From Sphingomonas sp. URHD0057 (GTDB lineage: Bacteria > Pseudomonadota > Alphaproteobacteria > Sphingomonadales > Sphingomonadaceae), in contig NZ_JIAU01000005.1 of NCBI RefSeq assembly GCF_000620665.1, forward strand, positions 549,501-613,500: a stretch of DNA of 64,000 nucleotides, read 5' to 3'. A model generated the notes under the pieces. The model was not told the DNA's origin. It saw nothing but the letters and a program-made list of their open reading frames with translations, and did no database searches. The position numbers were made by a program, and so were the translations under genes. Positions 352 through 12,429 of the stretch are shown piece by piece; position 1 is the first letter of the stretch, and each line of letters opens with the position of its first letter.

Positions 352-454
352 GGGGCGACTCCCGCTGCTGAAGCCGCGGGCGTGCCATGCGGTGGCGCTG
401 CTCCCAAACGTACTTCGACGAGCGTGTTGCGCGGTTCGACGGCAGAAGCCGCGG

Positions 455-1597
455 TCAAAGCGCCTTTTCGTAGATCCGGTAGCGGTGGTTGACCTCGGCA
501 CCGGGCAGCTGCGCGATCGACAGCATCCCCTTATTGTCCTCGAGGATCCAGCCGAACTCGCCGTGGGTCGCGCCGTATTTCGCGGTCGCGTCGCGGCGGG
601 TGTATTCGATCATCATGAAAGCGAGCTGGCTCGCGAGGCGGCTGTGGTGGAGCTTCTTGGCGACGCCCATCAGCGGCACCCGCAGCCGGCGCGTGCGTGG
701 CTTGCGCAGGCGCCACAGGAGCTTGATGAAGTTGAATGGGAACAGCTCGCCGTTGAGGTCGGCGGTGAGCTCGTTGATGTCGGGGATGGTCAGCATGAAG
801 GCGACCGGCTCGCCGTCGATCTCGGCGATGCGCACCAGCTCCGCGAAGATGATCGGCTTCAGCTTCTTGCCCGCATAAGCGATCTCCGCGGCGGTCAGCG
901 GGACATAGCCCCAATTGGTCGACCAGGCGTCGTTCAGCAGGTTGAGGATGACCCGCGCTTCTTCGTCGAACTTCGACTTGTCGACCATGCGGATGCGCAG
1001 GTGCGGGTTGCGCTCGCCCATCGCGATCAGGCGATCGATCTTGGGGTCTTCCCAATGGGTGATGTCCAGCTCGTAGGTGAGGAGGTCCTTGGCCTTGGCG
1101 TAGCCGGCGGCCTCGATCCACGGGCGATATTCGGGGCGGTGGTGGCCCATCATCGCGGTCGGCGGCTCGTCGAAGCCCTCGATCTCCAGGCCCGGCTCGT
1201 CCCAGATCGACAGGCTGATCGGCCCCAGCGCGCGGGTCATGCCCTGGGCGCGCAGCCACTCCTCGGCGGTGGCGATGAGCGCCTCGGCCGCCTCGCCGTC
1301 GAGCGCGTCGAAAAAGCCCCACTGGCCGATGCCCTGGCCCATATGCTCCTGGACGAGGTCGTCGACCTGCGCGCTGATACGGCCGACGACGCGGCCGCCG
1401 CGCTCCGCCAGCCACAGCTGGGCGCGGGCATGCTCAAACCACGGATTCTTGCCGGGGGTGATGAGGCCGTGGACTTCGTCCTTGAGCGGCGGGACCCAGG
1501 CGGGATCGCCCTTGTACGCCTCCCACGCGAAGTCGACGAAAGCCTTTTTGTCCTTTTTGGTCTCGACCGGGCGGACCGTTACGCTGACGCTGCTCAT
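455..1597 (-). CDS. GNAT-fold N-acyltransferase-like protein
   Basis: 380 residues starting at the M-S-S-V methionine. A start 29 codons upstream is possible, but that extension looks non-conserved and would run almost into the divergent desaturase gene. The N-terminal third (residues about 5-90) contains a W-E-A-Y segment and a G-R-V-V-G-R-I strand typical of the GNAT acetyl-CoA fold, and a second degenerate GNAT-like half follows. Proteins of this size and layout are common in sphingomonads and are annotated only as N-acetyltransferases. The substrate is unknown. The stop at 455 leaves about 100 nt to the next minus-strand gene. Confidence 0.65.
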   Translation of the reverse strand: MSSVSVTVRPVETKKDKKAFVDFAWEAYKGDPAWVPPLKDEVHGLITPGKNPWFEHARAQLWLAERGGRVVGRISAQVDDLVQEHMGQGIGQWGFFDALDGEAAEALIATAEEWLRAQGMTRALGPISLSIWDEPGLEIEGFDEPPTAMMGHHRPEYRPWIEAAGYAKAKDLLTYELDITHWEDPKIDRLIAMGERNPHLRIRMVDKSKFDEEARVILNLLNDAWSTNWGYVPLTAAEIAYAGKKLKPIIFAELVRIAEIDGEPVAFMLTIPDINELTADLNGELFPFNFIKLLWRLRKPRTRRLRVPLMGVAKKLHHSRLASQLAFMMIEYTRRDATAKYGATHGEFGWILEDNKGMLSIAQLPGAEVNHRYRIYEKAL

Positions 1598-1698
1598 GAG
1601 CGCGGGGGCTAGCCGCTCGCGGCGTTCAGCGCCAGTGAACCCTTCAATCGCCACGATGAGGCCATTATCTCGGTGCACAAGCAAAGTCTCAGCAAGCG

Positions 1699-2808
1699 AT
1701 GACGAACGACACGGCGACCCTCGAGCGCAACGCGACCAACGCTGCCCCGGCGGAGGGCGCGCTCGCGCGCGTCAAAGACGACGCCGCGATGCTCAAGGCG
1801 GCGGCGAAGCTGACCCGCGACCTCAACCAGCCCAGTTCGAAAATCTATTGGGCCGACATGCTCGGCTCGGCGCTGCTCGGCTACGCCGGGCTGTTCGCGG
1901 CGATGCTTGTTCGACCGACCTGGCTGGCGGTCGCGGCCGGCCTGGTCGCGGTGCTCGCGCTGTATCGCGCGGGCTCGTTCATCCATGAGCTGACGCACAT
2001 CAAGAAGGGCGCGGTCAAAGGCTTTCGGCTGATCTGGAACCTGGCCGTCGGCGTGCCGCTCTTGGTGCCGAGCTTCATGTACGAAGGCGTCCACAACCAG
2101 CACCACGCCAAGCGCTATTACGGAACGATCGACGATCCCGAATATTTGCCGCTGGCGCTGATGCATCCGTGGAGCCTGCCGCTGTTCCTCATCGTCGCCG
2201 CGCTGGCACCGGTCGGCATGCTGATCCGCTTCGCGATCCTGGCCCCGCTGTCGCTGCTGGTCCCGAAGCTGCGGGCGGTCGTCGTCGGCCGGTATTCGGG
2301 CCTGCAGATCAATCCCAAGTTCGTGCGTCCCAAGGCCCAAGGCGACTTCGCGCGCGACTGGGCATGGCAGGAGGCGGCGTGCAGCGTATGGGCGATTGCG
2401 CTTCTGACGATGGTCGCGACCGGCGTCGTGCCGCTGCGCGACTTCCTGATCTTCCTGGGCGTCGCCTCGGGCGTGATGTTCTTGAACCAGGTCCGCACGC
2501 TCGTCGCGCATTTGTGGGAGAACGAGGGCGACCCGATGAGCGTGACGGCGCAGTTCCTCGACAGCGTCAACGTGCCGCCGCCGGGCAGCTTGCCGGCGCT
2601 GTGGGCGCCAGTTGGCCTGCGCTACCACGCGCTGCATCATTTGCTGCCGGGACTGCCCTATCACGCGCTGGGTGAAGCGCACCGCCGGCTGTGCAAGGAG
2701 CTTGAATCGGGCTCGGCCTATCACGCCTCGAGCCATCGCGGGCTTGCCCCGCTGGTCGCCCGGCTCGCGCGGAGCACGATGAGCAACCGCGCGCCCCGGA
2801 TTAATTGA
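1699..2808 (+). CDS. Membrane fatty acid desaturase
   Basis: 369-residue integral membrane protein of the fatty acid desaturase family. The three histidine boxes that bind the di-iron centre are visible: HELTH at 96-100, HNQHH at 132-136 and HALHH at 310-314. Hydrophobic segments at about 55-90, 112-128, 158-190 and 225-262 fit the family's membrane topology. It should introduce a double bond, or a related oxidation, into an acyl chain at the inner membrane; chain and position are not predictable from sequence. The last 8 nt overlap the end of the convergent DUF4034 gene. It is divergent from the acetyltransferase gene, so both promoters must lie in 1598-1698. Confidence 0.88.
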   Translation: MTNDTATLERNATNAAPAEGALARVKDDAAMLKAAAKLTRDLNQPSSKIYWADMLGSALLGYAGLFAAMLVRPTWLAVAAGLVAVLALYRAGSFIHELTHIKKGAVKGFRLIWNLAVGVPLLVPSFMYEGVHNQHHAKRYYGTIDDPEYLPLALMHPWSLPLFLIVAALAPVGMLIRFAILAPLSLLVPKLRAVVVGRYSGLQINPKFVRPKAQGDFARDWAWQEAACSVWAIALLTMVATGVVPLRDFLIFLGVASGVMFLNQVRTLVAHLWENEGDPMSVTAQFLDSVNVPPPGSLPALWAPVGLRYHALHHLLPGLPYHALGEAHRRLCKELESGSAYHASSHRGLAPLVARLARSTMSNRAPRIN

Positions 2809-3799
2809 GACCGGCGAGCGCGCGGCACTGCTGCCACGCGCTCGTGTCGCCCGGCCAGGCCGCCGCTCCATCGTCGTCCTTGAGGGCCACGAAATACTTC
2901 CGCGCCTCGTCCTTGTCCGCGAACCGGCACGCCAGCTTGGCGAAGTTCGCATAGTTCCACGGATCCGGATATCGCTGCGCGACGTCGCCCATCGCGACCT
3001 TCATCGTCGGCCAGTCGATCGCTTCCAGCCAGCAGCCGCAGGACAGGGCGCTCGCGTGCCAGTAAAGGCGGGCGTAGGCGCCCGTTCCGTCAACCTCCCG
3101 CGTAAGTTCGACCGCGTAACGCGCCAGCGCGTCGACATCCGCCGCGCTGCCGAACCACTGCGGCTGATAGTAAGTGTAGGCGTTCCAGTAGATGCCGTAA
3201 TAGGTCGGCTCCCTGGCCGTCGCCTCGTCGAGCAGCTTGCGGAACGCCTCGGGCTTGCGTCCCTCGGCGCGGTAGACGTCCTCCATCACCGCGTAATATT
3301 CGGGATCGGCCGATGCGACGTCCTTGTGCGCCCTCAGAACTGCGCCGGCCGCCTCGATGCTTTCGTGGAAGGGCTGCCACGCATCCTCGTCAACCTCCGA
3401 CGCATAGCCGCCGCCGCGGAAACACCAGGCGCGCTGGACCAGCATGTTCGCGCGGATGATGTGCGGCGCGGGGCTTGCGGGACTCGCTTTGGCCCAGTCA
3501 TCGATGAAGCTCTCGGCCGAGATCTGGCAATTGGCGGTCTCCCGCGTCGGCGGGGGAAAGGCCCGGCCCAGCCCGAGATAGAATTCTTGCAGCTTCCACG
3601 ATCCGCTCGGCGTCCGCTCCTTGTGCGAGCGGTACTCCTTCTCGACCGCGCTGAGTCCCGCAAAGTCGCGTGCCTGCACCAGCAAGTGGACGTGCTCGAA
3701 GATCTGCTTGCGAACCTCGAGCTCGCCTGCCCAGGCCGGCGCAGGAACTTGCGCCGACAGCAATAATGCAATCGCGGAAAAGAGACGCAAACCCGCCAT
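2801..3799 (-). CDS. Secreted DUF4034-type alpha-helical protein
   Basis: 332 residues from the M-A-G-L start; an upstream in-frame methionine would bury the signal peptide behind nine polar residues. The signal peptide (about residues 1-24) ends at P-A-W-A-G-E. The mature protein is helical, with six cysteines and repeated aromatic-rich helices, and resembles DUF4034 or TPR-like secreted proteins of unknown role. It converges on the desaturase gene with an 8-nt overlap of coding ends, so no room remains for a dedicated terminator between them. Confidence 0.6.
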   Translation of the reverse strand: MAGLRLFSAIALLLSAQVPAPAWAGELEVRKQIFEHVHLLVQARDFAGLSAVEKEYRSHKERTPSGSWKLQEFYLGLGRAFPPPTRETANCQISAESFIDDWAKASPASPAPHIIRANMLVQRAWCFRGGGYASEVDEDAWQPFHESIEAAGAVLRAHKDVASADPEYYAVMEDVYRAEGRKPEAFRKLLDEATAREPTYYGIYWNAYTYYQPQWFGSAADVDALARYAVELTREVDGTGAYARLYWHASALSCGCWLEAIDWPTMKVAMGDVAQRYPDPWNYANFAKLACRFADKDEARKYFVALKDDDGAAAWPGDTSAWQQCRALAGLN

Positions 3800-3886
3800 G
3801 ACTCGCCCCCGGCTTCGATTCGGCAAGCTCGTGATAGTGGGGAGAAGGTTTCGAACTGGTTTTAAGCGCCGCTTCCACGCCTCGAC

Positions 3887-4279
3887 CTATTTGGCCAGCA
3901 TGACGCTCAGCTGCTTGTCGTCGGGCCCGGCAAGAATCGCGCAATAGAGCTGGCCCGATTTGGTCGACGACGCATTGCGGAAATAGTGAACGACCTCGCC
4001 GGCGCGTTCGAGCGTCGTATCGCCGACCGTGATCTTGCGCACCGGCTCGCGGCCGATGCTGGCGAGGAAGCTGCCCCTGGCGACGAAGCAGACGACGGGA
4101 ACCGGGTGCATGTGCTCGGGCATTACCTGCCCTGGAAGGAAATCGACGCGCGTCGTTTCAACATGCGTGACGGATTTGGCGGGGGCGATCGGGAAGCTGC
4201 CGATCGGCGTGCGCACCGGGATTGGCGCCGCCGCCGCCGCACCGGCAGTCACGAACAGGACAATTGCAAGACGTCGCAT
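3887..4279 (-). CDS. Secreted cupin-domain protein
   Basis: 130 residues starting at M-R-R-L. The first 18 or so residues form a signal peptide ending in A-A-A-A-P. The rest is a single cupin beta-barrel: an H-M-H-P metal-binding segment near residues 57-60, then the G-S-F strand and the V-V-H-Y-F strand (second cupin motif) near 96-100. Such small periplasmic cupins bind a metal and a small ligand; no substrate can be given. It lies 87 nt upstream of the DUF4034 gene on the same strand and is divergent from rplQ across a 168-nt gap. Confidence 0.7.
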   Translation of the reverse strand: MRRLAIVLFVTAGAAAAAPIPVRTPIGSFPIAPAKSVTHVETTRVDFLPGQVMPEHMHPVPVVCFVARGSFLASIGREPVRKITVGDTTLERAGEVVHYFRNASSTKSGQLYCAILAGPDDKQLSVMLAK

Positions 4280-4447
4280 GATGGCTCCCCCCAAACTTGA
4301 CTTCGCGGGTCTTATCATGTTGAGGGCAGCGCGTCCGGCGGGCCGATGCGCTCGCCGTTGTCATTTGGGCTTTTGCGCAGCCGCCCGAAGAGCTGCGTGG
4401 CCGGGTCTACCTGATACGGGACCCCGACGAACGAAAGGAATGACCCC

Positions 4448-4870
4448 ATGCGCCATCGTGTTGGCCATCGTAAGCTTCAGCGCACCTCGAGCCACCGGAC
4501 GGCCCTGTTCCGCAACATGGCGGCCGCGCTGGTCAAGCATGAGCAGATCACGACCACGCTCGCCAAGGCGAAGGAGCTTCGCCCGTATGTCGAGAAGCTG
4601 GTGACCCTGGCCAAGAAGGGCGGCCTCAGCAATCGCCGGCTCGCCCAGTCCAGGCTGATGGACGAAGCTCAGCTCGCCAAGCTGTTCGACGTCATCGCGG
4701 TGCGCTACGCGGCCCGCAACGGAGGCTACACGCGCGTCGTCAAGGCGGGCATCCGCATGTCCGACGCGGCCCAGATCGCGATCATCGAGTTCGTCGACCG
4801 CGACGTCGCCGCCAAGGGCCAGGATTCGGGCCCGGTGATGAGCGACGAGGACCAGTTCGAAGCCGCCTGA
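4448..4870 (+). CDS. rplQ: 50S ribosomal protein L17
   Basis: 140 residues beginning [17 protein letters not shown], the signature N-terminus of bacterial L17, with the A-K-A-K-E-L-R-P segment at about 40-47 and the usual N-G-G-Y-T-R sequence near 92. It binds 23S rRNA in the large subunit around the peptide exit tunnel. A good Shine-Dalgarno sequence (GAAAGGA) lies 9 nt before the ATG. In most bacteria rplQ directly follows rpoA; here the preceding gene is a divergent cupin, so rplQ must be read from its own promoter in 4280-4447. The C-terminus is an acidic tail of about 20 residues. Confidence 0.97.
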
Positions 4871-4880
4871 GCGGCCTGAA

Positions 4881-6206
4881 CTAAAAGCTCCGCGTGACGC
4901 CGAAATCGAGGCGAGTGCGGCGGTAATCGAACAGCGCGATGTTGGCGCGGCTGTCGCTGTGCGTGACGCGCATCAGCGGCGTGAAGCCGGCGACGGCGGC
5001 GCGATTGAAGATCGCGCCCGCGGTCAGGTCCCAACGATGATCCCGGCGCGTCTTTCCGAACAGGAACTGCGGCTCGATCCCGCGCGTGCGGGTGTAATCG
5101 GCCTCCCCGAACAGGGTTAGCGAGCGCGACTGGTGCGCAAGCAGAAGCCCGGCGCCTGCCTGGCGCAGGCTTTCGGGGTTCACGCGGGCATTGAGCGAGG
5201 CGTAGCGCAGGGTGACGCGCGCGGTGGTCGCGGCGCTCAGGGCTCTTGTCAGGTCGGCTCCGAGGGCGGTCCGCCAGCCGTCCTGTCCCGAATTCTTTGC
5301 CACGTCCTGGTGCAGGTGCGAGCCGGTGAGGCTGATCTGGGCCTTCGGCCCAAGCGGCGCGAGCAATTCGATCTGGCCGCCGATGCCGCTCGAGAAAAGG
5401 TCGCCGCCGAACCAACGCCGCTCATAGAGCGCGGCGGGACGGACCTGCACCTTGCCGAGAAGGAACTCCGGCCCGCTGTCGAGCGCAAGCTGGACGTCGT
5501 TGAAGCGCGGCTTGGTCGAAAGATCCGCGCGAAGCCCGGCATCGGACAGCAAGGTGATCCCGCCGATCCGGTCGCGCGAATAACCGCGCAGGCTGCCGGT
5601 GAAGCCAAGCGCGGGCTGGCGCCGCGCATCGGGGTCGAGCTCGAACGGCGCGATGATGGTGTCGATGAACAGGCTCGACGTCGATCGGTTGACGTTCGAA
5701 TCCGGGCCCGCGGTCACTTCCACGGTGAGCCCGCGGCGTTTGGTCGTCCGCAGCGTGCTGGCGAAGCGGCGGACATTCTGCTCAACCTCCGGCGGCAAGC
5801 CCCAGGCTTCGGCCGCCGCGACTTGCTTTTTTGCTTCTTCGGTCTGGCCGAGCCGCGACAGGATCCGCGCGAGCTCGAGCCGGGCCGGGTTCGCGTTGGG
5901 CTGCTCGGCCAGAAGCTGGCGGAGGGCCTGAACCGCGCCCTTGAGGTCGCCGAGCTTTTCGCGGACGGCGGCGAGCCGAAACCTCGCCTCGGCGCGTAAC
6001 TCCGGATGTGGATCCTGGGTGAGCGCCTCCAATAGTTGGGCGGCGCCCGCCAGATCCCCCTTTCCGGCAAGCTCGTCCGCCGCCGCGAACAGCTGAGCGG
6101 CGGTCAGCTGTTGGCAGTTCTGCTGTCCAGCGCAGGGATCGGGAGCGGCGGTCGAAGAAGGCGGGCCGGCCGCCAGCGACGCGGCGGCGCTCAACAGAGT
6201 CAACAT
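4881..6206 (-). CDS. Slam-type outer membrane translocon (type XI secretion, DUF560-like)
   Basis: 441 residues. After a short hydrophobic leader (about 1-20) come two cysteines (25 and 31) and helical TPR-type repeats (about 33-150), then a long stretch of alternating beta strands to the C-terminus that ends in phenylalanine (T-R-S-F), the usual outer-membrane barrel signature. The barrel opens with G-P-D-S-N-V-N (167-173), the P-D-x-N-x-N motif of Slam proteins. TPR domain plus 14-strand barrel is the layout of surface lipoprotein assembly modulators, which move TbpB-fold cargo across the outer membrane. The two genes directly upstream encode such cargo, with a gap of 33 nt. The leader lacks a positive N-terminus; a CTG start up to 11 codons earlier cannot be excluded. 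Confidence 0.8.
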   Translation of the reverse strand: MLTLLSAAASLAAGPPSSTAAPDPCAGQQNCQQLTAAQLFAAADELAGKGDLAGAAQLLEALTQDPHPELRAEARFRLAAVREKLGDLKGAVQALRQLLAEQPNANPARLELARILSRLGQTEEAKKQVAAAEAWGLPPEVEQNVRRFASTLRTTKRRGLTVEVTAGPDSNVNRSTSSLFIDTIIAPFELDPDARRQPALGFTGSLRGYSRDRIGGITLLSDAGLRADLSTKPRFNDVQLALDSGPEFLLGKVQVRPAALYERRWFGGDLFSSGIGGQIELLAPLGPKAQISLTGSHLHQDVAKNSGQDGWRTALGADLTRALSAATTARVTLRYASLNARVNPESLRQAGAGLLLAHQSRSLTLFGEADYTRTRGIEPQFLFGKTRRDHRWDLTAGAIFNRAAVAGFTPLMRVTHSDSRANIALFDYRRTRLDFGVTRSF

Positions 6207-6239
6207 GCCTGCCAGTCTAGCAGGGGGCGTCGAGCAGCG

Positions 6240-7130
6240 TCAGTTCTTCTTGCCGACGATTGCCCCGGCGCCGGCACCGATCTCTTGCGTGCCCAGCGTC
6301 CGCGTGAGGGTGAACGCGCCGCCGATTTCCTGCACCTGCGGCCCGAAGAAATTGCCGTTGGCGCTGAACAGGGTCTTGGTGCCGTCCGCCGCACGGCTGC
6401 GGCTGGTTGCGTTCCAGCTCGACGTGCTCGCGTCGATGAACCCGCCGCCGGTCAGCGTTCCGAACTGGATCGTCGACCCGTTAGTGAGGTTGGTCGCGAC
6501 CGGCGTAACCGTCAGCCCCATTGTCGCGCTGCTGAAATCGGCGACGAGCCGGCCGTTGCCGGCCATGCTGTAGGTCTTGCCGCTCGGCGAGCCGGTTTGC
6601 TGCCAGGTCCCGTCGAGAATGAAATTGTAGTTGGCCGAGCCCGATCGCGGCACCGCCGACGCCGGGGTAATCGACCCGAACACGACGTAATTGTCGTTGA
6701 GCACGACTGGAGCCTGCGGGACCGGAGTCCACTTGCCGTAGGTGACGTAGGTGAGGGCGATGACCGGATTGGTCGCGCCTTGATTGAGGAGCTTCAGCGT
6801 CGCTCCCGTCGCGGTGTCACGATAGTAAGTGTAGGCCGCGCTCGACTTGGCCGCGACATACTCCGTGCGCGAGAAGCTGATGTTCTGCTGGCCGTCGTTG
6901 ACGACGTAGGTGCCCGACGTCGCGTCGTAATGGACGGTGGTCGGGTACACGTTCGCCGAAACATTATTGCGCCCGTAAACCGTGGGGTTGCCAACCGACA
7001 GTATGCCCCATTTGGCCTGGTAATCGCCGGTTTTCAGGTTCGGCGTCGGATTGGGCGTGACCGCGAGTGCGGGCGCCGCGGCGAGGCCAACGGCGATCGA
7101 AACCAGCAAAGCATTGGCGCGAATAGACAT
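6240..7130 (-). CDS. Secreted TbpB-barrel-type protein, candidate Slam cargo 2
   Basis: 296 residues from M-S-I-R-A-N, with a Sec signal peptide ending A-A-A-P-A-L-A at about 23 and no lipobox cysteine. The mature protein is almost all beta strands rich in Gly, Ser and Thr. Near the C-terminus G-N-F-F-G-P (259-264) then E-I-G-G-A-F and a final G-A-I-V-G-K-K match the C-terminal barrel of TbpB-like proteins, known substrates of Slam translocons. It is a clear paralog of the next upstream gene; shared blocks include Y-D-x-x-x-G-T-Y-V-V and I-A-L-x-Y-V-x-Y-G. Being soluble, it could be released like hemophores or held in the Slam pore. The ligand is unknown. Confidence 0.75.
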   Translation of the reverse strand: MSIRANALLVSIAVGLAAAPALAVTPNPTPNLKTGDYQAKWGILSVGNPTVYGRNNVSANVYPTTVHYDATSGTYVVNDGQQNISFSRTEYVAAKSSAAYTYYRDTATGATLKLLNQGATNPVIALTYVTYGKWTPVPQAPVVLNDNYVVFGSITPASAVPRSGSANYNFILDGTWQQTGSPSGKTYSMAGNGRLVADFSSATMGLTVTPVATNLTNGSTIQFGTLTGGGFIDASTSSWNATSRSRAADGTKTLFSANGNFFGPQVQEIGGAFTLTRTLGTQEIGAGAGAIVGKKN

Positions 7131-7224
7131 GACGCGACTCCCTTCATGCCCGTCAAAACGGCCTTTGGGGCGCATGTAAGTATTCCCAACGCGCGAAATG
7201 GTTCATCGGCGTGCGGCGAGACGC

Positions 7225-7242
7225 GTTCGACGCGCGTCGAAC
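7225..7242. promoter_or_regulatory. Perfect 18-bp palindrome between the two cargo genes
   Basis: GTTCGACGCGCGTCGAAC reads identically on both strands. It lies in the 166-nt gap between cargo 1 and cargo 2, about 95 nt upstream of the cargo 2 start. It could be a dimeric regulator site or an RNA stem that controls relative expression of the two cargo genes. Confidence 0.5.
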
Positions 7243-7265
7243 TCAGACCTTGCGAGGGGGTGTTG

Positions 7266-7291
7266 GCAGGGGAAGCCGGCGCTCCCCCTGC
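7266..7291 (-). other. Stem-loop just after the cargo 1 stop codon
   Basis: GCAGGGG (7266-7272) pairs with CCCCCTGC (7284-7291), with an 11-nt loop. On the minus strand it begins 6 nt after the cargo 1 stop and is not followed by a T-run, so it looks more like an intercistronic stabiliser or partial attenuator than a full terminator. Confidence 0.5.
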
Positions 7292-7296
7292 GAAAC

Positions 7297-8115
7297 TTAC
7301 GGGTGGCCGACGATGGCGCCCTGGCCCTGACCGCCGTTGCCGGTGATCCGGAACAGCCCGCCGACTTCCTGGGCGGCCGGACCGTAGAAGCTGCCGTTGA
7401 CGTCCATCCGGTAATGTTCCGGGTCGGCGGTGCCGGTGCCCGTGAACATGCCGCTGCGGTACGAGATGGAGCCGGTGCCGGTCATCGTCCCGAAGTTGAT
7501 CGAGCCGCTGCCGACTTCCTTGGTGCCGGTCGCGGTTTGACTGTAGGTGATCGACGCCCCAGCGAAGTTCGCGGTCAGGTTGCCGGTTCCGCTGACGGCG
7601 TAGGCGCCGTCCTTGTTGACGAAGGTGCCGTCGACGACGGTGCCGTAGGATGCGCTGCCGGTGCGCGGGATGCTCGCGGTGGGCGTGCGCGAACCCCACA
7701 CCAAATATGTGTCATTGACGCTGGTCGTGCCGCTGGCGGTCGCGGTCCGGCGCCATTGGCCGTAATCGACATAGCTGAGCGCGATCAGGGTGTTCGACGG
7801 GCTTAAGTTGAGGCGCCGGAAGCTGTTGGCCGCGGTGCCGTAGGTGCTGAAGTTGCCGGCCGACGAAACCAGGTTGGCGGGGCCAAAAGTCGCGGTCGTC
7901 GTCAGGCTTCCGGTGTCGCGCACGACATAAGTGCCCGCGGCCGAATCATAGACCACTTTGCTCGTCGCCCGCGCGTAATTGCCGTAACCCGACGCGCCGG
8001 TCGAGGTGGTCGAATATTGGACCGTCGACTGAAGCGCGGGAAGATTGACCGGCGCGGCCTCGGCCGATGCGCCAAGCAGGAGAGCGGCAGTCGCTGCAGG
8101 AATCATGATGCGCAT
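7297..8115 (-). CDS. Secreted TbpB-barrel-type protein, candidate Slam cargo 1
   Basis: 272 residues from M-R-I-M-I-P; the upstream in-frame methionine would place a charged stretch before the signal peptide. The Sec signal ends at A-S-A-E-A near residue 20 with no lipobox. The body is beta-rich with G-S-F-Y-G-P (241-246), E-V-G-G-L-F and a terminal G-A-I-V-G, the TbpB-type barrel end. It aligns over most of its length with the adjacent paralog, implying tandem duplication. First gene of the cargo-cargo-Slam operon; a 15-bp dyad sits about 95 nt upstream of the start. Confidence 0.75.
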   Translation of the reverse strand: MRIMIPAATAALLLGASAEAAPVNLPALQSTVQYSTTSTGASGYGNYARATSKVVYDSAAGTYVVRDTGSLTTTATFGPANLVSSAGNFSTYGTAANSFRRLNLSPSNTLIALSYVDYGQWRRTATASGTTSVNDTYLVWGSRTPTASIPRTGSASYGTVVDGTFVNKDGAYAVSGTGNLTANFAGASITYSQTATGTKEVGSGSINFGTMTGTGSISYRSGMFTGTGTADPEHYRMDVNGSFYGPAAQEVGGLFRITGNGGQGQGAIVGHP

Positions 8116-8210
8116 GACTTGAAACCCCTTGGGAAGATGTCGCGGAAGTAAACCCCGGTTCCTACTTTCAGTCAATCAGTCGTGGCAAAAGGTAAAGAAA
8201 AACATTTGGT

Positions 8211-8225
8211 TACGACGATCGTAAG
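8211..8225. promoter_or_regulatory. Dyad TTACGA-N3-TCGTAA upstream of the cargo operon
   Basis: TTACGACGATCGTAA is a perfect 6-3-6 inverted repeat in the divergent region between cargo 1 (start 8115, minus strand) and the small protein gene at 8338. Placement and symmetry suggest an operator; the regulator is not identifiable. Confidence 0.45.
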
Positions 8226-8289
8226 ACCTGGCTCCGGCCGCTTGGCCGTCGGCTCGAACCAGCCTGAAGGGCGGCTGGAGTCGTGAAGC

Positions 8290-8301
8290 CTGTGGATAAG
8301 T
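8290..8301 (-). promoter_or_regulatory. Extended DnaA box (TTATCCACA on the minus strand)
   Basis: CTGTGGATAAGT contains the perfect DnaA nonamer in reverse orientation. The same 12-mer occurs upstream of mraZ and just before ftsZ. GANTC sites flank it at 8278-8282 and 8312-8316. Confidence 0.6.
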
Positions 8302-8337
8302 GATAGACTGCGAGTCGCCACATCGGGGGTGGCGGGG

Positions 8338-8529
8338 ATGCTTTACTATCGGCTGTACTTCATCGACCGCTTCAGCGGTCACATCGATCACTTCCGCGAA
8401 TTCGAGGCCGCGGACGACGAGGCCGCGCTCGCGCTCGCCGAGCATTGGCGGAACGGCACCCCGATGGAATTGTGGAATCGCCATCGCAAGCTGAAGCGCT
8501 GGGATGAGATCGCGGTTACCCCGGACTGA
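8338..8529 (+). CDS. Small conserved-looking hypothetical protein
   Basis: 63 residues starting M-L-Y-Y-R-L-Y-F. A GTG three codons earlier (8329) is in frame, but the ATG is well spaced from a G-rich ribosome site. The protein is charged, with an aromatic N-terminal strand, an R-F-S-G-H-I-D-H-F segment, and a helical middle with many Ala and Glu (D-D-E-A-A-L-A-L-A). No family is recognised, but the composition and codon use are those of a real cytosolic gene. It lies downstream of a DnaA box flanked by two GANTC sites, so expression may follow the cell cycle. Confidence 0.65.
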   Translation: MLYYRLYFIDRFSGHIDHFREFEAADDEAALALAEHWRNGTPMELWNRHRKLKRWDEIAVTPD

Positions 8530-8654
8530 GTGGCAGCGACCTTTGCTTAACCGCAGCAAACGCTCGGTTCACCGTTAGTGCATCGCCGAAACGTTAGGCC
8601 CGACATGGATCGTCGTGCGTTGTGTCGGCGAACCTGAAACGAGGGAGTTTGGCC

Positions 8655-9236
8655 ATGAGGGCTATGACGAAAATCCTGGCGGGCGGCGTCGTAGCTGCCG
8701 CGCTGTTCAGTGCGGCCCCCGCGGCTGCGCAATATTATCCGGGCTATCCCGGCTACGGTTACGGCGGCAATCCGGTTGGCCAGGTGATCAACCAGGTGAT
8801 GGGCGGCGGCTACGGCTACAACGGCTATGGCAACGGCCAGTACAGCCAAGTCGCGGTCAACCAGTGCGTCGCCGCGGTTCAGCAGCGGATGAGTGGCGGC
8901 TATGCGCCCTACAGCGGCTACGGCAGCGGCTATAGCTACTATCCCTACGAGAACAGCTATCCGGGCGGCCGCGTCCTCGGCATCAGCCGGGTCGAGCCGC
9001 GCTCGGGCGGCGGCGTGACGGTTCGCGGCGTCGCCAGCAGCGGCCGTTATGGCGTGGGCTATGGCGGGCAGCAGCAGCCGGACCTGACATTCAAGTGCAA
9101 GTCAGACTACCGCGGCTATGTCACCGACGTCGACATCAACCGTGCCCAGTCGAACTACGGCTCCAACTATCAGTCCTACCAACCCTACTCACAGTACGGG
9201 AACGATTATTCCCAGTACGGCTACCGCCGCTACTAA
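8655..9236 (+). CDS. Secreted Gly/Tyr-rich protein
   Basis: 193 residues from M-R-A-M-T, preceded by GAGGGAG. A signal peptide ends at A-A-A-Q (about 24). The mature protein opens with G-Y-P-G-Y-G repeats, has two cysteines (about 72 and 150), a central ordered part (G-R-V-L-G-I-S-R-V-E-P-R and G-V-T-V-R-G) and a Tyr/Ser/Gln/Asn-rich tail with S-Q-Y-G repeats. The ordered core is probably a small beta fold closed by the cysteine pair, flanked by disordered aromatic repeats. Function is unknown; an envelope-associated role is an inference. A good terminator follows. Confidence 0.75.
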   Translation: MRAMTKILAGGVVAAALFSAAPAAAQYYPGYPGYGYGGNPVGQVINQVMGGGYGYNGYGNGQYSQVAVNQCVAAVQQRMSGGYAPYSGYGSGYSYYPYENSYPGGRVLGISRVEPRSGGGVTVRGVASSGRYGVGYGGQQQPDLTFKCKSDYRGYVTDVDINRAQSNYGSNYQSYQPYSQYGNDYSQYGYRRY

Positions 9237-9262
9237 GCGTCGATCGGGACGGGTAAAAAGGG

Positions 9263-9297
9263 ATGCGCCGGGGCCGCGAGGCTCCGGCGCATTTCTT
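9263..9297. terminator. Bidirectional terminator hairpin
   Basis: ATGCGCCGGGGCC pairs with GGCTCCGGCGCAT around a short GCGA loop with one mismatch. On the plus strand it is followed by a TTTCTT tract; on the minus strand by CCCTTTTT. It serves the Gly/Tyr-rich gene (ends 9236) and the convergent SRPBCC gene, whose stop at 9296 lies in the stem. Confidence 0.75.
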
Positions 9298-9793
9298 ATG
9301 CCGTCTGAGCAAGCTCGCGCGCGACTTCGGCCATCTGCTCGGCGCAGGTTGCCCAGCCGCTATCGAAGCCCATGGCCGCGTGGGCGTCGCGGTCCTTGGC
9401 GTTGGCGTGCATCACGGTCGCGGTATAGCGCGTCTTGCCGTCGCCCGCGTCCTCGAACGTGTGGATCGCCGTGAACGGAAAGCCGTTGCACCCGTCGTCG
9501 GCGAATTCGTTGGGGCGGTAACCGTCCTTCATCGTCGTCGACCAGACGATGCGTTCGCCCGGCGCCACCTCCAGCACGCATGCGGTACCGCTGAAGTCGA
9601 AGCCGTCGGGACCTGTCATCCGAGTATGGAATTTGCCGCCCGGCCGGAGCTCGATCTCGCATTCGGGCGTCTGGTAGGGCCGCGGCGCCCACCAGCGCTT
9701 GATATGCTCGGGGTCGGTCCACGCCCTCCACACCAGGTCGCGCGGCGCGTCGAGCGTTCGCTCGAGCTTCAGGTCGTATACGTCTTCGCTCAC
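9296..9793 (-). CDS. SRPBCC (Aha1/START-like) domain protein
   Basis: 165 residues forming one SRPBCC domain. The typical opening R-T-L-D-A-P-R-D-L-V-W-R-A-W-T-D-P and the W-W-A-P-R segment are at about 12-40, then G-G-K-F and the closing helix with W-A-T-C-A-E-Q-M. This fold has a deep hydrophobic pocket for lipids or other small ligands; members next to ArsR regulators are often called Aha1-domain proteins, with little known function. Its ATG overlaps the stop of the upstream ArsR gene by 4 nt, so the two are co-translated. Confidence 0.85.
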   Translation of the reverse strand: MSEDVYDLKLERTLDAPRDLVWRAWTDPEHIKRWWAPRPYQTPECEIELRPGGKFHTRMTGPDGFDFSGTACVLEVAPGERIVWSTTMKDGYRPNEFADDGCNGFPFTAIHTFEDAGDGKTRYTATVMHANAKDRDAHAAMGFDSGWATCAEQMAEVARELAQTA

Positions 9794-10131
9794 TTCGGAT
9801 CCTCCTGTTGGATTTCGGCGACATGGGTTTCGAAACGATCGAGCCGCGCTTCCCAGGCTGACCGCTGCTCCGCAATCCAGAATTCGGCGGCCGACAGCGC
9901 GGGGGCTTCGAGCCGAACGGTGCGGACGCGGCCCTTCTTTTCGGAGCGCACGAGGCCGCCGTGCTCGAGCGCCTTCAAGTGCTGCATGATTGCTGGCAGG
10001 GACATCGGAAAAGGCGCCGCCAGCTCCGACACCGAGGCCGGGCCGCGGCTGAGGCGAGCGAGCATCCCGCGCCGGACCGGATCGGCGAGGGCCTGAAAGG
10101 CGCGGTCGAGCTGAAGCGAATCGTTAAGCAT
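9790..10131 (-). CDS. ArsR-family winged-helix repressor
   Basis: 113 residues. The winged helix spans about 10-90, with the A-D-P-V-R-R-G-M-L opening helix and the recognition helix S-L-P-A-I-M-Q-H-L-K-A-L followed by the G-L-V-R-S-E-K-K-G-R wing. No cysteine metal-site motif is present, so it is not a metal sensor of the ArsR/SmtB type. It heads a two-gene unit with the SRPBCC protein (4-nt overlap), a pairing widespread in alphaproteobacteria, and probably represses its own operon. The promoter should lie in 10132-10190. Confidence 0.88.
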   Translation of the reverse strand: MLNDSLQLDRAFQALADPVRRGMLARLSRGPASVSELAAPFPMSLPAIMQHLKALEHGGLVRSEKKGRVRTVRLEAPALSAAEFWIAEQRSAWEARLDRFETHVAEIQQEDPK

Positions 10132-10190
10132 GTGCTTAAGTATCGCGACGGCGCGGGAGGCGCAAGACAGTTAAGCGATGACTTTAGTTT

Positions 10191-11858
10191 CTATTGGGGC
10201 CGCCGCGTCCAGGTCCAGCGGAAAGTCTCGGTCCACGGTGCGTTTGGCGTCGAGTTGAGCCGGATCGATTCGGTGTGAAGAACGGTCGAACGATCCGCCG
10301 ACGGCTGGTCCATGATCCGTTCGGTCGCGGGCGCGCCTTCGTGGTCGCCGGGGAGATAGCCGATCCAGGCCTGCTCGGCGTCGCTCCACGTCAAAGTGTA
10401 CCGCGGTTGGCCGGGCCAGTTGCTGTCGAACAGCAGCACGTCGAAGCCGGGGCTCTTGGCGTCCTTGTGAATATTGTGCTCGATGGTGCGCAGCCGGCCG
10501 TCGCGATTGCGGTAGAAGCGCACGGCGCAGCGAATGTAGGTCGATTTCAGCTCGGCCGTGCAGCCGATCGTGCTGGTTTCTCCGACGGGGGTGGCGCCCG
10601 GCTGGAAGGCTGCCGTGTACGTGCTTTGGGCAGTCCAGTTCCCGACGAGGTAGGCCATCGGCGCAAGCGGGCTGTCGGCGGCGATCGCCGAGCCGCCGGG
10701 CGCGAGCACCCGGAGCAACCGCCCGTGGTCCTCGTCGGTCAGGATATAGAGATTGCCGTCGGGTGCGACGCGGATGTCGCGAATGCGAGCCTTGAGCCCG
10801 GTCAGCCAACGGCCTTCCTCAGCCAGGAGGCCGGTCTTCTCCCCAATCCTGACCTGCGCCATCATGCGGAAGGCGAGCGAGCCGATCAGCAGGCGTCCCT
10901 CCCATTCGGGGTGGAGCGCGCCATGATAAATGGCGAGGCCCGACGGCGCGATCGACGGCGCCCAGAAGAAGCGCGGATCGGTCAACCCGTCGACATGCTG
11001 GCGATCGGTGATCAGCTCGCCGCTGTAATCGATGCCGAACGAAGCGCGCGGCCAGCCATAGTTGCGCCCGGCGACCAGCTCGTTGATTTCGTCGCCGCCG
11101 CGGGGCCCGTGCTCATGTTCCCAGATCGTGCCGGTGACGGGATCGCGGGTCAGGCCCTGGGGGTTGCGGTGACCGAGCGTCCATATCTCGGGCGCATAGC
11201 CGGCACGGCCGACGAACGGGTTGCCCGGCGGTACCCCGCCGTCGCGGGTCAGGCGCAGGATCTTGCCGAGATGGGTCGACGGGTCCTGCGCGCGGTCGCG
11301 ATAGGCGAAGCCGTCGCCGACGGTTAGCAGCAGCGTCTTGTCGGGCAGGAACAGCAGCCGCCCGCCGGGATGCGAGCTGTCCTTCTTGGCGGTGTTGGTG
11401 CGGAAGATGACGCGGCCGTCCGCGAGCCGGTCGCGCTCGAGGCGCGCCTTCCAGATCGCGGTGCGATTCTCTCCCTGCGTCCCTTCCGCAAACGCGAGAT
11501 AGATCATGTGGTTGGCGGCGAAGTCGGGGTCGAGCACGATGTCGAGGAGGCCGCTGTCCTCCTTGGCGAAGACGTTCGCCGGGCCGCCGGGCAGCGCCGG
11601 CGTCGCGCTCCCGTTGGGGGCGATGATCCGCACCCCGCCGTGCTTTTCACTAACCAGGAACGATCCATCGGGAAGGAACGCGAGCGACCAGGGGGCGGCG
11701 AGCAGCGGACCGACTTGCTCGACCTCATAGCGGTCGACCGGCGGGATCGGCACGCGATCGATCGCCACCGCCTGCTGCCGCGCCGTCAACTGCGCAAAAG
11801 CCGGGGAAATCGCCGAGCCGGCCAGCAACAAGCTGGCCCACACACTCCGGCTGTTCAT
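10191..11858 (-). CDS. Secreted PQQ-dependent sugar dehydrogenase-like protein with extra C-terminal domain
   Basis: 555 residues. The start at 11858 follows AGGAGGA with good spacing and opens a signal peptide ending in P-A-F-A-Q (about 23). Residues about 35-390 form a GSDH-type six-bladed beta-propeller: P-W-S-L-A-F-L-P-D-G, G-L-L-D-I, then L-G-H-R-N-P-Q-G-L and E-H-G-P-R-G-G-D-E, matching YliI-type aldose sugar dehydrogenases. Family members oxidise sugars using PQQ and calcium in the periplasm. From about 395 a separate domain of about 150 residues follows (G-N-W-T-A-Q-S, two cysteines), resembling a small lipocalin or DUF1579-type barrel; this identification is uncertain. It is divergent from the Lrp gene. 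Confidence 0.8.
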   Translation of the reverse strand: MNSRSVWASLLLAGSAISPAFAQLTARQQAVAIDRVPIPPVDRYEVEQVGPLLAAPWSLAFLPDGSFLVSEKHGGVRIIAPNGSATPALPGGPANVFAKEDSGLLDIVLDPDFAANHMIYLAFAEGTQGENRTAIWKARLERDRLADGRVIFRTNTAKKDSSHPGGRLLFLPDKTLLLTVGDGFAYRDRAQDPSTHLGKILRLTRDGGVPPGNPFVGRAGYAPEIWTLGHRNPQGLTRDPVTGTIWEHEHGPRGGDEINELVAGRNYGWPRASFGIDYSGELITDRQHVDGLTDPRFFWAPSIAPSGLAIYHGALHPEWEGRLLIGSLAFRMMAQVRIGEKTGLLAEEGRWLTGLKARIRDIRVAPDGNLYILTDEDHGRLLRVLAPGGSAIAADSPLAPMAYLVGNWTAQSTYTAAFQPGATPVGETSTIGCTAELKSTYIRCAVRFYRNRDGRLRTIEHNIHKDAKSPGFDVLLFDSNWPGQPRYTLTWSDAEQAWIGYLPGDHEGAPATERIMDQPSADRSTVLHTESIRLNSTPNAPWTETFRWTWTRRPQ

Positions 11859-11961
11859 CGAAATCCTCCTCGTTGGGGAGGCGAAACTTATTTGCGGTCG
11901 CCGGTGGATGCGGGCAAAAACCTCTGTCGAATGATGGATTTCGTCATTGTGGGGAAACGCC

Positions 11962-12429
11962 GTGGACGCGCTCGACCGTCGCATTTTGAGAGTGGTTCAG
12001 CAGGACTGCTCGATGAGCGCGGCGATGCTCGCGGATCGCTGCGGAACCACCGAATCGACCGTGCTGCGGCGAGTCAAAGCGCTGACGAAGGCGGGCATCC
12101 TGTCCCGCGCCGTCATGAAGGTCGCGGCCGAGAAGGTTGGCCGCGGACTGACGATCATCCTGTCGGTCAGGCTGGAGCGTGAGACGGCGTCGCAGGTGGA
12201 AGCGTTTCGGCGCAGCATTGCCGAGCATCCGGACGTGCTGAGCTGCTACTTCGTTACCGGCACCTGGGACTATCTCATCATCCTCAACGTCGGTGCGATG
12301 GGCGACTATGACCGCTTCTTGCGGGAGATGGTCGTTGGGCAGTCGGTCATGGTCGCGTCCGAAACGCATGTCGTGATCCAGGCCATCAAGGCCGACGGCC
12401 CGGTCGCGATCGACGAACCCGCGCCCTGA
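11962..12429 (+). CDS. Lrp/AsnC-family transcriptional regulator
   Basis: 155 residues from the GTG at 11962 (M-D-A-L-D-R-R-I-L); a TTG five codons upstream is also in frame. The N-terminal helix-turn-helix (about 1-60) shows L-A-D-R-C-G-T-T-E-S-T-V-L-R-R-V-K-A-L, and the C-terminal RAM domain (about 65-145) ends with a strand carrying V-V-I-Q-A-I-K. Lrp proteins form octamers that sense amino acids or similar metabolites. Divergent from the sugar dehydrogenase-type gene, with 103 nt between starts, which makes that gene a candidate target. Confidence 0.88.
   Translation: MDALDRRILRVVQQDCSMSAAMLADRCGTTESTVLRRVKALTKAGILSRAVMKVAAEKVGRGLTIILSVRLERETASQVEAFRRSIAEHPDVLSCYFVTGTWDYLIILNVGAMGDYDRFLREMVVGQSVMVASETHVVIQAIKADGPVAIDEPAP

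Follow-up and report, generated by a model that had tools for sequence, protein, structure and literature searches.

The locus and its genes

The locus described here lies in a stretch of 64,000 nucleotides from Sphingomonas sp. URHD0057 (contig NZ_JIAU01000005.1, positions 549,501 to 613,500), which we call the window and whose numbering we use throughout. It holds the gene of a Slam-type outer-membrane protein of the type 11 secretion system (T11SS) and two genes for putative substrates of that protein, termed cargo A and cargo B. On the minus strand the transcription order is cargo A, cargo B, Slam, with gaps of 166 and 33 bp, and all three open reading frames (ORFs) are intact. The Slam thus has, at 33 bp, a neighbour encoding a cargo with a TbpBBD barrel, as expected of such a protein. 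It is plausible that the three genes form one operon. Between 4800 and 8700 there are two predicted terminator sites, fewer than the mean of 3.3 in shuffled sequence, and the RNA fold of the gap between the cargos has a z score of −1.08.

The Slam matches the Pfam family SlipAM (PF04575) with 38.1 bits against a cut-off of 22, and its N-terminal tetratricopeptide repeats (TPR) match TPR_19 with 42.8 bits against a cut-off of 25; TPR_Slam falls just short. Both cargos match TbpB_B_D (PF01298), just over its cut-off. The two are paralogues, with 80 of 232 aligned columns identical (E = 4e-33), and each has one barrel carrying the motifs F-x-G-P and E-x-G-G-x-F and a final GAIVG. Their signal-like N-termini end in A-x-A, as read from the sequence, and neither contains a single cysteine, so that the lipobox cysteine belonging to the NCBIfam slam_lipo family (NF041636) is absent. 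The first-pass annotation had read the locus as a T11SS with two paralogous, non-lipidated TbpB-barrel cargos behind plain signals. The ORF positions, paralogy, motifs, signals and both domain assignments agree with it, and the reading is borne out by profile matches, gene adjacency and the co-occurrence described below. Elsewhere in the genome (2.79 Mb in 11 contigs) nothing similar is found: the one SlipAM place and the two TbpB_B_D places are all at this locus, there are no further matches to either family, and a protein search with cargo A returns only itself and cargo B.

Table 1. Features of the T11SS locus and its flanking anchors, in window coordinates.
Feature	Position	Strand	Basis
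Slam / T11SS outer-membrane protein, 441 aa	4881..6206	-	PF04575 SlipAM and TPR_19 matches; 58.5% identical to the L006 Slam
Slam TPR region, residues 40-135	5802..6089	-	TPR_16 40-105 (under cut-off), TPR_19 86-135 (over), TPR_Slam 75-128 (33.9 of 35.2 bits)
Slam barrel part, residues 234-440	4887..5507	-	SlipAM match
Cargo B, 296 aa, ATG 7130 after AAGGGAG, stop 6240	6240..7130	-	PF01298, 26.9 bits
Cargo B predicted signal peptide, to A-L-A, no lipobox; mature start would be VTPNPTPN	7062..7130	-	By eye; putative cleavage site
Cargo B TbpB-type C-terminal barrel	6282..6650	-	PF01298 match, coordinates converted
Cargo A, 272 aa, ATG 8115, stop 7297	7297..8115	-	PF01298; orthologues in L006 and L185
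Cargo A predicted signal peptide, to about A-E-A, no lipobox	8053..8115	-	By eye; putative cleavage site
Cargo A handle region, no Pfam or PDB match	7741..8052	-	Alignment and profile searches
Cargo A TbpB-type C-terminal barrel, residues 153-264	7324..7659	-	PF01298 match
Presumed rplQ, downstream synteny anchor	4448..4870	+	Adjoins Slam in L006 (L184) and L185 too
Gly/Tyr-rich small protein gene, upstream synteny anchor	8622..9236	+	On the cargo side in L006 (L184) and L185 also

The barrel and the handle

A profile built from 24 cargos of the family (Sphingomonadaceae) matches known structures in the PDB: TbpB (1.4e-20), LbpB (4.5e-12), GNA2132 (1.4e-10) and hemophilin (3.7e-7). All 28 PDB matches at E ≤ 0.001 fall in positions 121–315 of the 315-position profile, that is on the barrel side; for several TbpB chains the match includes the strand leading into the barrel. 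The N-terminal part, or handle, was said in the first-pass annotation to match nothing known. For Pfam and the PDB this stands. No Pfam family is found in more than one of 33 handle regions, and a profile of the 33 finds nothing in the PDB (best E 0.24). Yet the region can be aligned, weakly, across related cargos, and therefore appears to be a divergent handle that they have in common and not an odd domain peculiar to this locus. We infer that it folds like the handle of TbpB.

Probable loss of the lipid anchor

A lipobox pattern lies before or near the first lobe in 116 of the 124 cargo ORFs collected from the family, while shuffled versions of these stretches average 12.4 matches and reach at most 22. 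A stricter rule retains 114, against a shuffled mean of 5.2 and maximum of 10. Four of the eight ORFs lacking the pattern are N-terminally incomplete in the frame read (L104, L108, L111 at 5041 and L114 at 2327); they start at profile position 33 or later and have no signal. The remainder, all devoid of cysteine, consists of cargo A and cargo B together with those of two orthologous loci, L006 and L185. In a tree of 26 cargos chosen from the 124 these four proteins form one clade with support of 95/92, within which cargo A pairs with that of L006 (100/98) and is joined by L185 (99/97) and then by cargo B. A quick tree of 113 lobes supports the same clade at 0.882. An arrangement with cargo B as sister of A is disfavoured, at a borderline p-AU of 0.047, and B sits on a long branch.

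The next branch outside the clade is a lipobox cargo (L136) with a proline-threonine linker. Cargo B has TPNPTPN directly after its signal; this may be a remnant of such a linker, which is not present in all relatives. Judged by these patterns and the tree, the absent lipid anchor is the exceptional feature of the locus compared with its relatives. The soluble state is predicted to be derived: the ancestor of a small clade would have lost its lipobox, while the surrounding relatives are predicted surface lipoproteins.

Changes in the Slam

The Slams of the same three loci depart from their relatives. As reference we took 44 columns that are at least 88% conserved among 93 other Slams of the family. 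At these columns the clade has five departures in common, at R130, A167, Y230, R337 and D377 (window numbering), whereas 93 other nearest-neighbour trios, which overlap one another, have a mean of 0.46 and a maximum of 3. The replacements at 230, 337 and 377 vary within the clade, in line with a lifted constraint. Taken singly, the Slam of the window departs at 10 columns and those of L006 and L185 at 7 each, where the mean is 2.0.

The most suggestive of these positions is Arg337. It is arginine in 86 of the 93 other Slams, 91 of which stand beside a lipobox cargo, and in none of the three of the clade; the seven of the 93 that lack it are all beside lipobox cargos. A more distant set comprised 40 Slam loci elsewhere in the phylum, of which 10 had lipidated cargo, 10 soluble cargo, 13 no cargo and 7 were ambiguous. 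Here Arg337 is found in 7 of 10 Slams beside lipidated cargo and 2 of 10 beside soluble cargo (3 of 10 by profile alignment), in rows that are not independent (several per genome or genus) and with shaky alignments of the distant barrels. Positions 130, 167, 230 and 377 gave no clear separation of the distant Slams and served less well than 337. As a marker of cargo type Arg337 is a lead only.

Taken together with the cargo tree, these changes might record a natural switch from tethered to released cargo, in which an ancestor within the genus lost the cargo lipobox and its Slam then lost residues needed only for lipidated cargo. We regard such a sequence of events as doubtful but worth stating, and position 337 as the best candidate for such a residue. 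No description of a lipobox loss in a Slam–cargo clade accompanied by an altered Slam was found in an open-licence library, which lacks most subscription journals.

History of the locus

The surroundings of the locus are conserved. We take the gene at 4448..4870 to be rplQ, encoding ribosomal protein L17, and the labels at the orthologous loci are likewise presumptive where they read ArsR, SRPBCC, rplQ, desaturase and GNAT. In L185 (genome G216) the order is ArsR, SRPBCC, the Gly/Tyr-rich gene, cargo, Slam, rplQ, desaturase and a GNAT-like gene. L006, read as L184, keeps the part of this order that starts with the Gly/Tyr-rich gene and runs as far as the desaturase; its length and content show it to be the same record as contig C102 of genome G255, and the two count as one. 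In both loci the Slam and the orthologue of cargo A have unbroken reading frames and retain their motifs. Each has that one cargo, and cargo B is present in the window only. At a further locus (L198, genome G260) some 500 bp separate rplQ from the Gly/Tyr-rich gene, and neither Slam nor cargo is matched there. Across the orthologous loci the cargos are 52–62% identical while the neighbouring rplQ is 86–91% identical, and thus the cargos diverge fast.

The best explanation of this pattern is that cargo A is the ancestral cargo of the locus and B a diverged paralogue. Because B separates from the other three cargos before they split from one another, it would either stem from an old duplication and have been lost elsewhere, or be a copy that diverges fast. 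The suggestion in the first-pass annotation that the pair serves two related ligands or antigenic forms finds no support in anything tested: the orthologous loci have single cargos, and only 6 of the 102 loci holding both Slam and cargo have, on our reading, two or more apparently intact cargo genes.

Two smaller features of the surroundings were seen. The motif TTGAC, 54–60 bp 5′ of the cargo start (within 8116–8200 of the window), aligns in the three orthologous loci and might be a promoter element; this is too little for a claim of a shared motif. Between the desaturase and rplQ the window has two genes (2801–4318), one DUF4034-like but below cut-off and one a cupin. In L185 neither is matched in the interval from desaturase to rplQ, and the same holds for the available part of L006.

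Distribution in the Sphingomonadaceae

How general is the association of Slam and cargo? Of 199 genomes of the family, 61 contain a SlipAM match, as against none of 14 control genomes. Homologues of cargo A occur in 35 of the 199, and all 35 genomes are among the 61, as the lists compared by hand reveal. A first homologue scan of genome contigs gave one locus, L006. We then searched 127 loci (the window, L006, L066–L141, L185–L193 and L202–L241) with a Slam profile grown from the window protein; most had been fetched for their Slam, and five without one (L136–L140) for their cargo. A Slam is present in 122 of the 127, and in 102 it is accompanied by a cargo. In 99 of these 102 loci the nearest Slam and cargo are no more than 300 bp apart, and in 101 they share a strand. 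Distances between Slams correlate with those between their nearest cargos (r = 0.56 over 96 pairs, where none of 999 permutations exceeded 0.12). This comparison and that of Slam departures used 96 loci having one long Slam and a cargo within 300 bp.

The cargo ORFs have one lobe in 74 cases, two in 34 and three in 16. Within the genus 8 of 71 genomes have cargo matches, and the type of locus beside rplQ is found in three (G000, G216 and G255, by coordinates). Two clusters of TonB receptors, whose representatives were assigned by Pfam, are neighbours at 7 and 4 of 78 loci. Given that the genome of the window alone, at 2.8 Mb, has 22 receptor places, we do not judge these to be regular neighbours above background.

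The wider family offers several variants. In one genome (G008) six single-lobe cargo genes follow one another on one strand (L140, G008:C2:627000-640000, at 2498–9662), the 13 kb of that locus lacking a Slam, and three more cargo ORFs of two or three lobes lie elsewhere (L097, L138, L139). Since nine cargo ORFs accompany one SlipAM match, a single Slam may serve about nine cargos there. In L096 (genome G138, 392–11251) a single Slam lies amid five cargo ORFs of one to three lobes. The cargo ORFs at the Slam loci L104, L111 and L114 are fragmented, through either gene decay or faulty assembly. Single-lobe cargo with Slam also forms a second branch (several of L066–L086), which lies at 11 loci beside a gene that we take to be purQ-like, and recurs at 10 loci by a SAICAR synthetase gene (by Pfam, on one representative). 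An association of T11SS with nucleotide synthesis genes is reported in a 2025 survey (PMC12282271). Among 72,556 plasmid records one matches cargo A and four match the Slam, all from Novosphingobium. The four (AP026900.1, NC_015583.1, NZ_CP117882.1 and NZ_CP009292.1) encode Slam relatives 24–35% identical, of which one is annotated as a surface lipoprotein assembly modifier; one of the four records also contains the cargo match. A gene near the locus in the window (10194–11984) matches plasmids of mixed origin, the majority of them from Alphaproteobacteria.

A probable soluble T11SS and its alternatives

The locus belongs to a known kind of system, the T11SS. Given the observed gene content, homology, co-occurrence and missing lipobox, we put at about 0.75 the probability that this is a T11SS locus whose Slam exports two cargos that became soluble secreted binders; such binders are most likely what the cargos have turned into. 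Secretion, release, recognition and ligand we infer, the analogy being provided by the Neisseria-type system and the soluble cargos HrpC and HphA. Neisseria Slam1 moves unfolded TbpB into proteoliposomes, with Skp acting as holdase, and a C-terminal cargo motif has been proposed to be read by Slam (PMC9090332). HrpB raises HrpC in the culture medium of E. coli 9.9- to 17-fold (PMC8406197), and the release of HphA depends on its Slam (PMC8560813). By this analogy cargos A and B would enter the periplasm through Sec and be cut by signal peptidase I. A Skp-type holdase would keep them unfolded, the candidate being the one gene of the OmpH/Skp family in the genome. The Slam would recognise the C-terminal TbpB-type barrel and pass the cargo through the outer membrane. 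The cargo would fold outside and, being without lipid, depart from the surface. As to the ligand, a possible and quite tentative role is that of a scavenger of a nutrient or metal chelate, which would hand over in trans to one of the TonB receptors of the genome.

A number of points weigh against soluble secretion. The matches to TbpB_B_D pass narrowly (26.9 bits for cargo B and 26.7–27.1 for cargo A, cut-off 26), and those to slam_lipo, at 33.2 (B) and 43.9 bits (A), are under the cut-off of 80. AlphaFold models of cargo A, alone and with two relatives (only three sequences being usable), have mean pLDDT values of just 32.7 and 30.6. The signal cleavage sites were judged by eye. Judging by the shuffled mean, chance will account for part of the 116 lipobox matches in relatives. 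The cysteine-free clade comprises four proteins from three genomes, and one of its loci, L006, comes from a metagenome bin (G255) that is 67% complete. The five common Slam departures may be coincidental, because the lipobox loss is one evolutionary event; the trios with which they were compared overlap, and single Slams elsewhere equal the clade (16 departures in L188, 10 in L239, 9 in L240). No cargo lies within the fetched stretch at 20 of the 122 Slam loci. Finally, no export experiment on a sphingomonad Slam was found in the open-licence literature, most subscription journals being outside it.

Among the alternatives the one that survives best, though we consider it unlikely, is that the cargos are adhesins, or matrix or biofilm proteins, forming a surface or extracellular coat of which B is a diverged second form. 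The relatives include predicted lipoproteins with proline-threonine linkers and ones of two and three lobes, Sphingomonas surface proteins form a class of their own in the 2025 survey (PMC12282271), and the fast divergence of the cargos against rplQ would fit. Against this, the lost lipid anchor of the clade argues against a fixed role at the surface, and nothing indicates surface binding.

Clearly less probable is a soluble hemophore system: both cargos would capture haem and pass it to a TonB receptor, the role known or proposed for hemophilin, HphA and HrpC. The predicted build is the same, soluble, with one handle and one barrel and beside a Slam, the family profile matches the hemophilin barrel, and the genome has 22 receptor places (PF00593). 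Yet HphA uses two histidines and hemophilin one (PMC8560813), and the cargos have none at matching places: H234 and H271 in A, H67 in B, H155 and H260 in L006 and H108 in L185. The locus has no TonB receptor, the nearest on contig C4 being about 149 kb away, and the handle profile misses hemophilin. A haem role is not favoured because of the lack of common histidines and the distance to a receptor.

Marginally less probable again is that the pair is decaying after the loss of the lipid anchor, with the cargos remaining periplasmic and the Slam degenerating. The Slam does depart from conserved positions, its SlipAM match starts only at profile position 77 of 288, and at other loci the cargo ORFs of some relatives are incomplete. 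But the three genes are open in the window, L006 and L185 retain an uninterrupted Slam and cargo A together with the motifs, and Slam and cargo distances correlate across the family. A chance resemblance, the Slam being an ordinary porin of the outer membrane and the cargos two unrelated periplasmic proteins rich in beta structure, could explain the narrow passing of the TbpB_B_D cut-offs, but is highly improbable in the light of the co-occurrence, adjacency and profile matches to TbpB.

Relation to known systems

In a 2021 network paper, DUF560 proteins largely of environmental Sphingomonadaceae isolates make up subcluster 1C, with no characterised members (PMC8406197). That subcluster likewise has a Slam-type protein beside TbpBBD genes, and the present locus is provisionally assigned to it by its probable taxonomy; its cargos differ in lacking the lipobox that most cargo ORFs of the family have. 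HrpC of Xenorhabdus (with HrpB; subcluster 1B), HphA of Acinetobacter (with HsmA) and hemophilin are soluble cargos of one handle and one barrel beside a Slam, a build predicted for the present cargos as well; here there is neither a TonB receptor, nor a match in handle sequence, nor a common histidine. In Neisseria the C-terminal lobe of TbpB, the cargo of Slam1, aligns with the present barrels and the strand leading into them, but TbpB is a two-lobed lipoprotein where these cargos have one lobe and no lipobox.

The only publication found on T11SS in Sphingomonas, in an open-licence library without most subscription journals, is the 2025 survey (PMC12282271). Its Sphingomonas surface proteins are made of handle–barrel units, as is predicted for the cargos here, and come probably from related bacteria, but have Pro-Thr repeats and two to three handle–barrel pairs, in contrast to the one lobe of each cargo here. 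They number 18 lipoproteins and 12 soluble proteins (PMC12282271), so that soluble cargo in Sphingomonas is already in print. The survey gives seven verified T11SS secretins, all of animal-associated cluster 1 (PMC12282271).

Related natural systems with lipobox cargo (such as L094 and L098) and without it allow surface display to be compared with release. If the switch from tethered to released cargo should prove true, this locus would show how a Slam distinguishes lipidated from soluble cargo.

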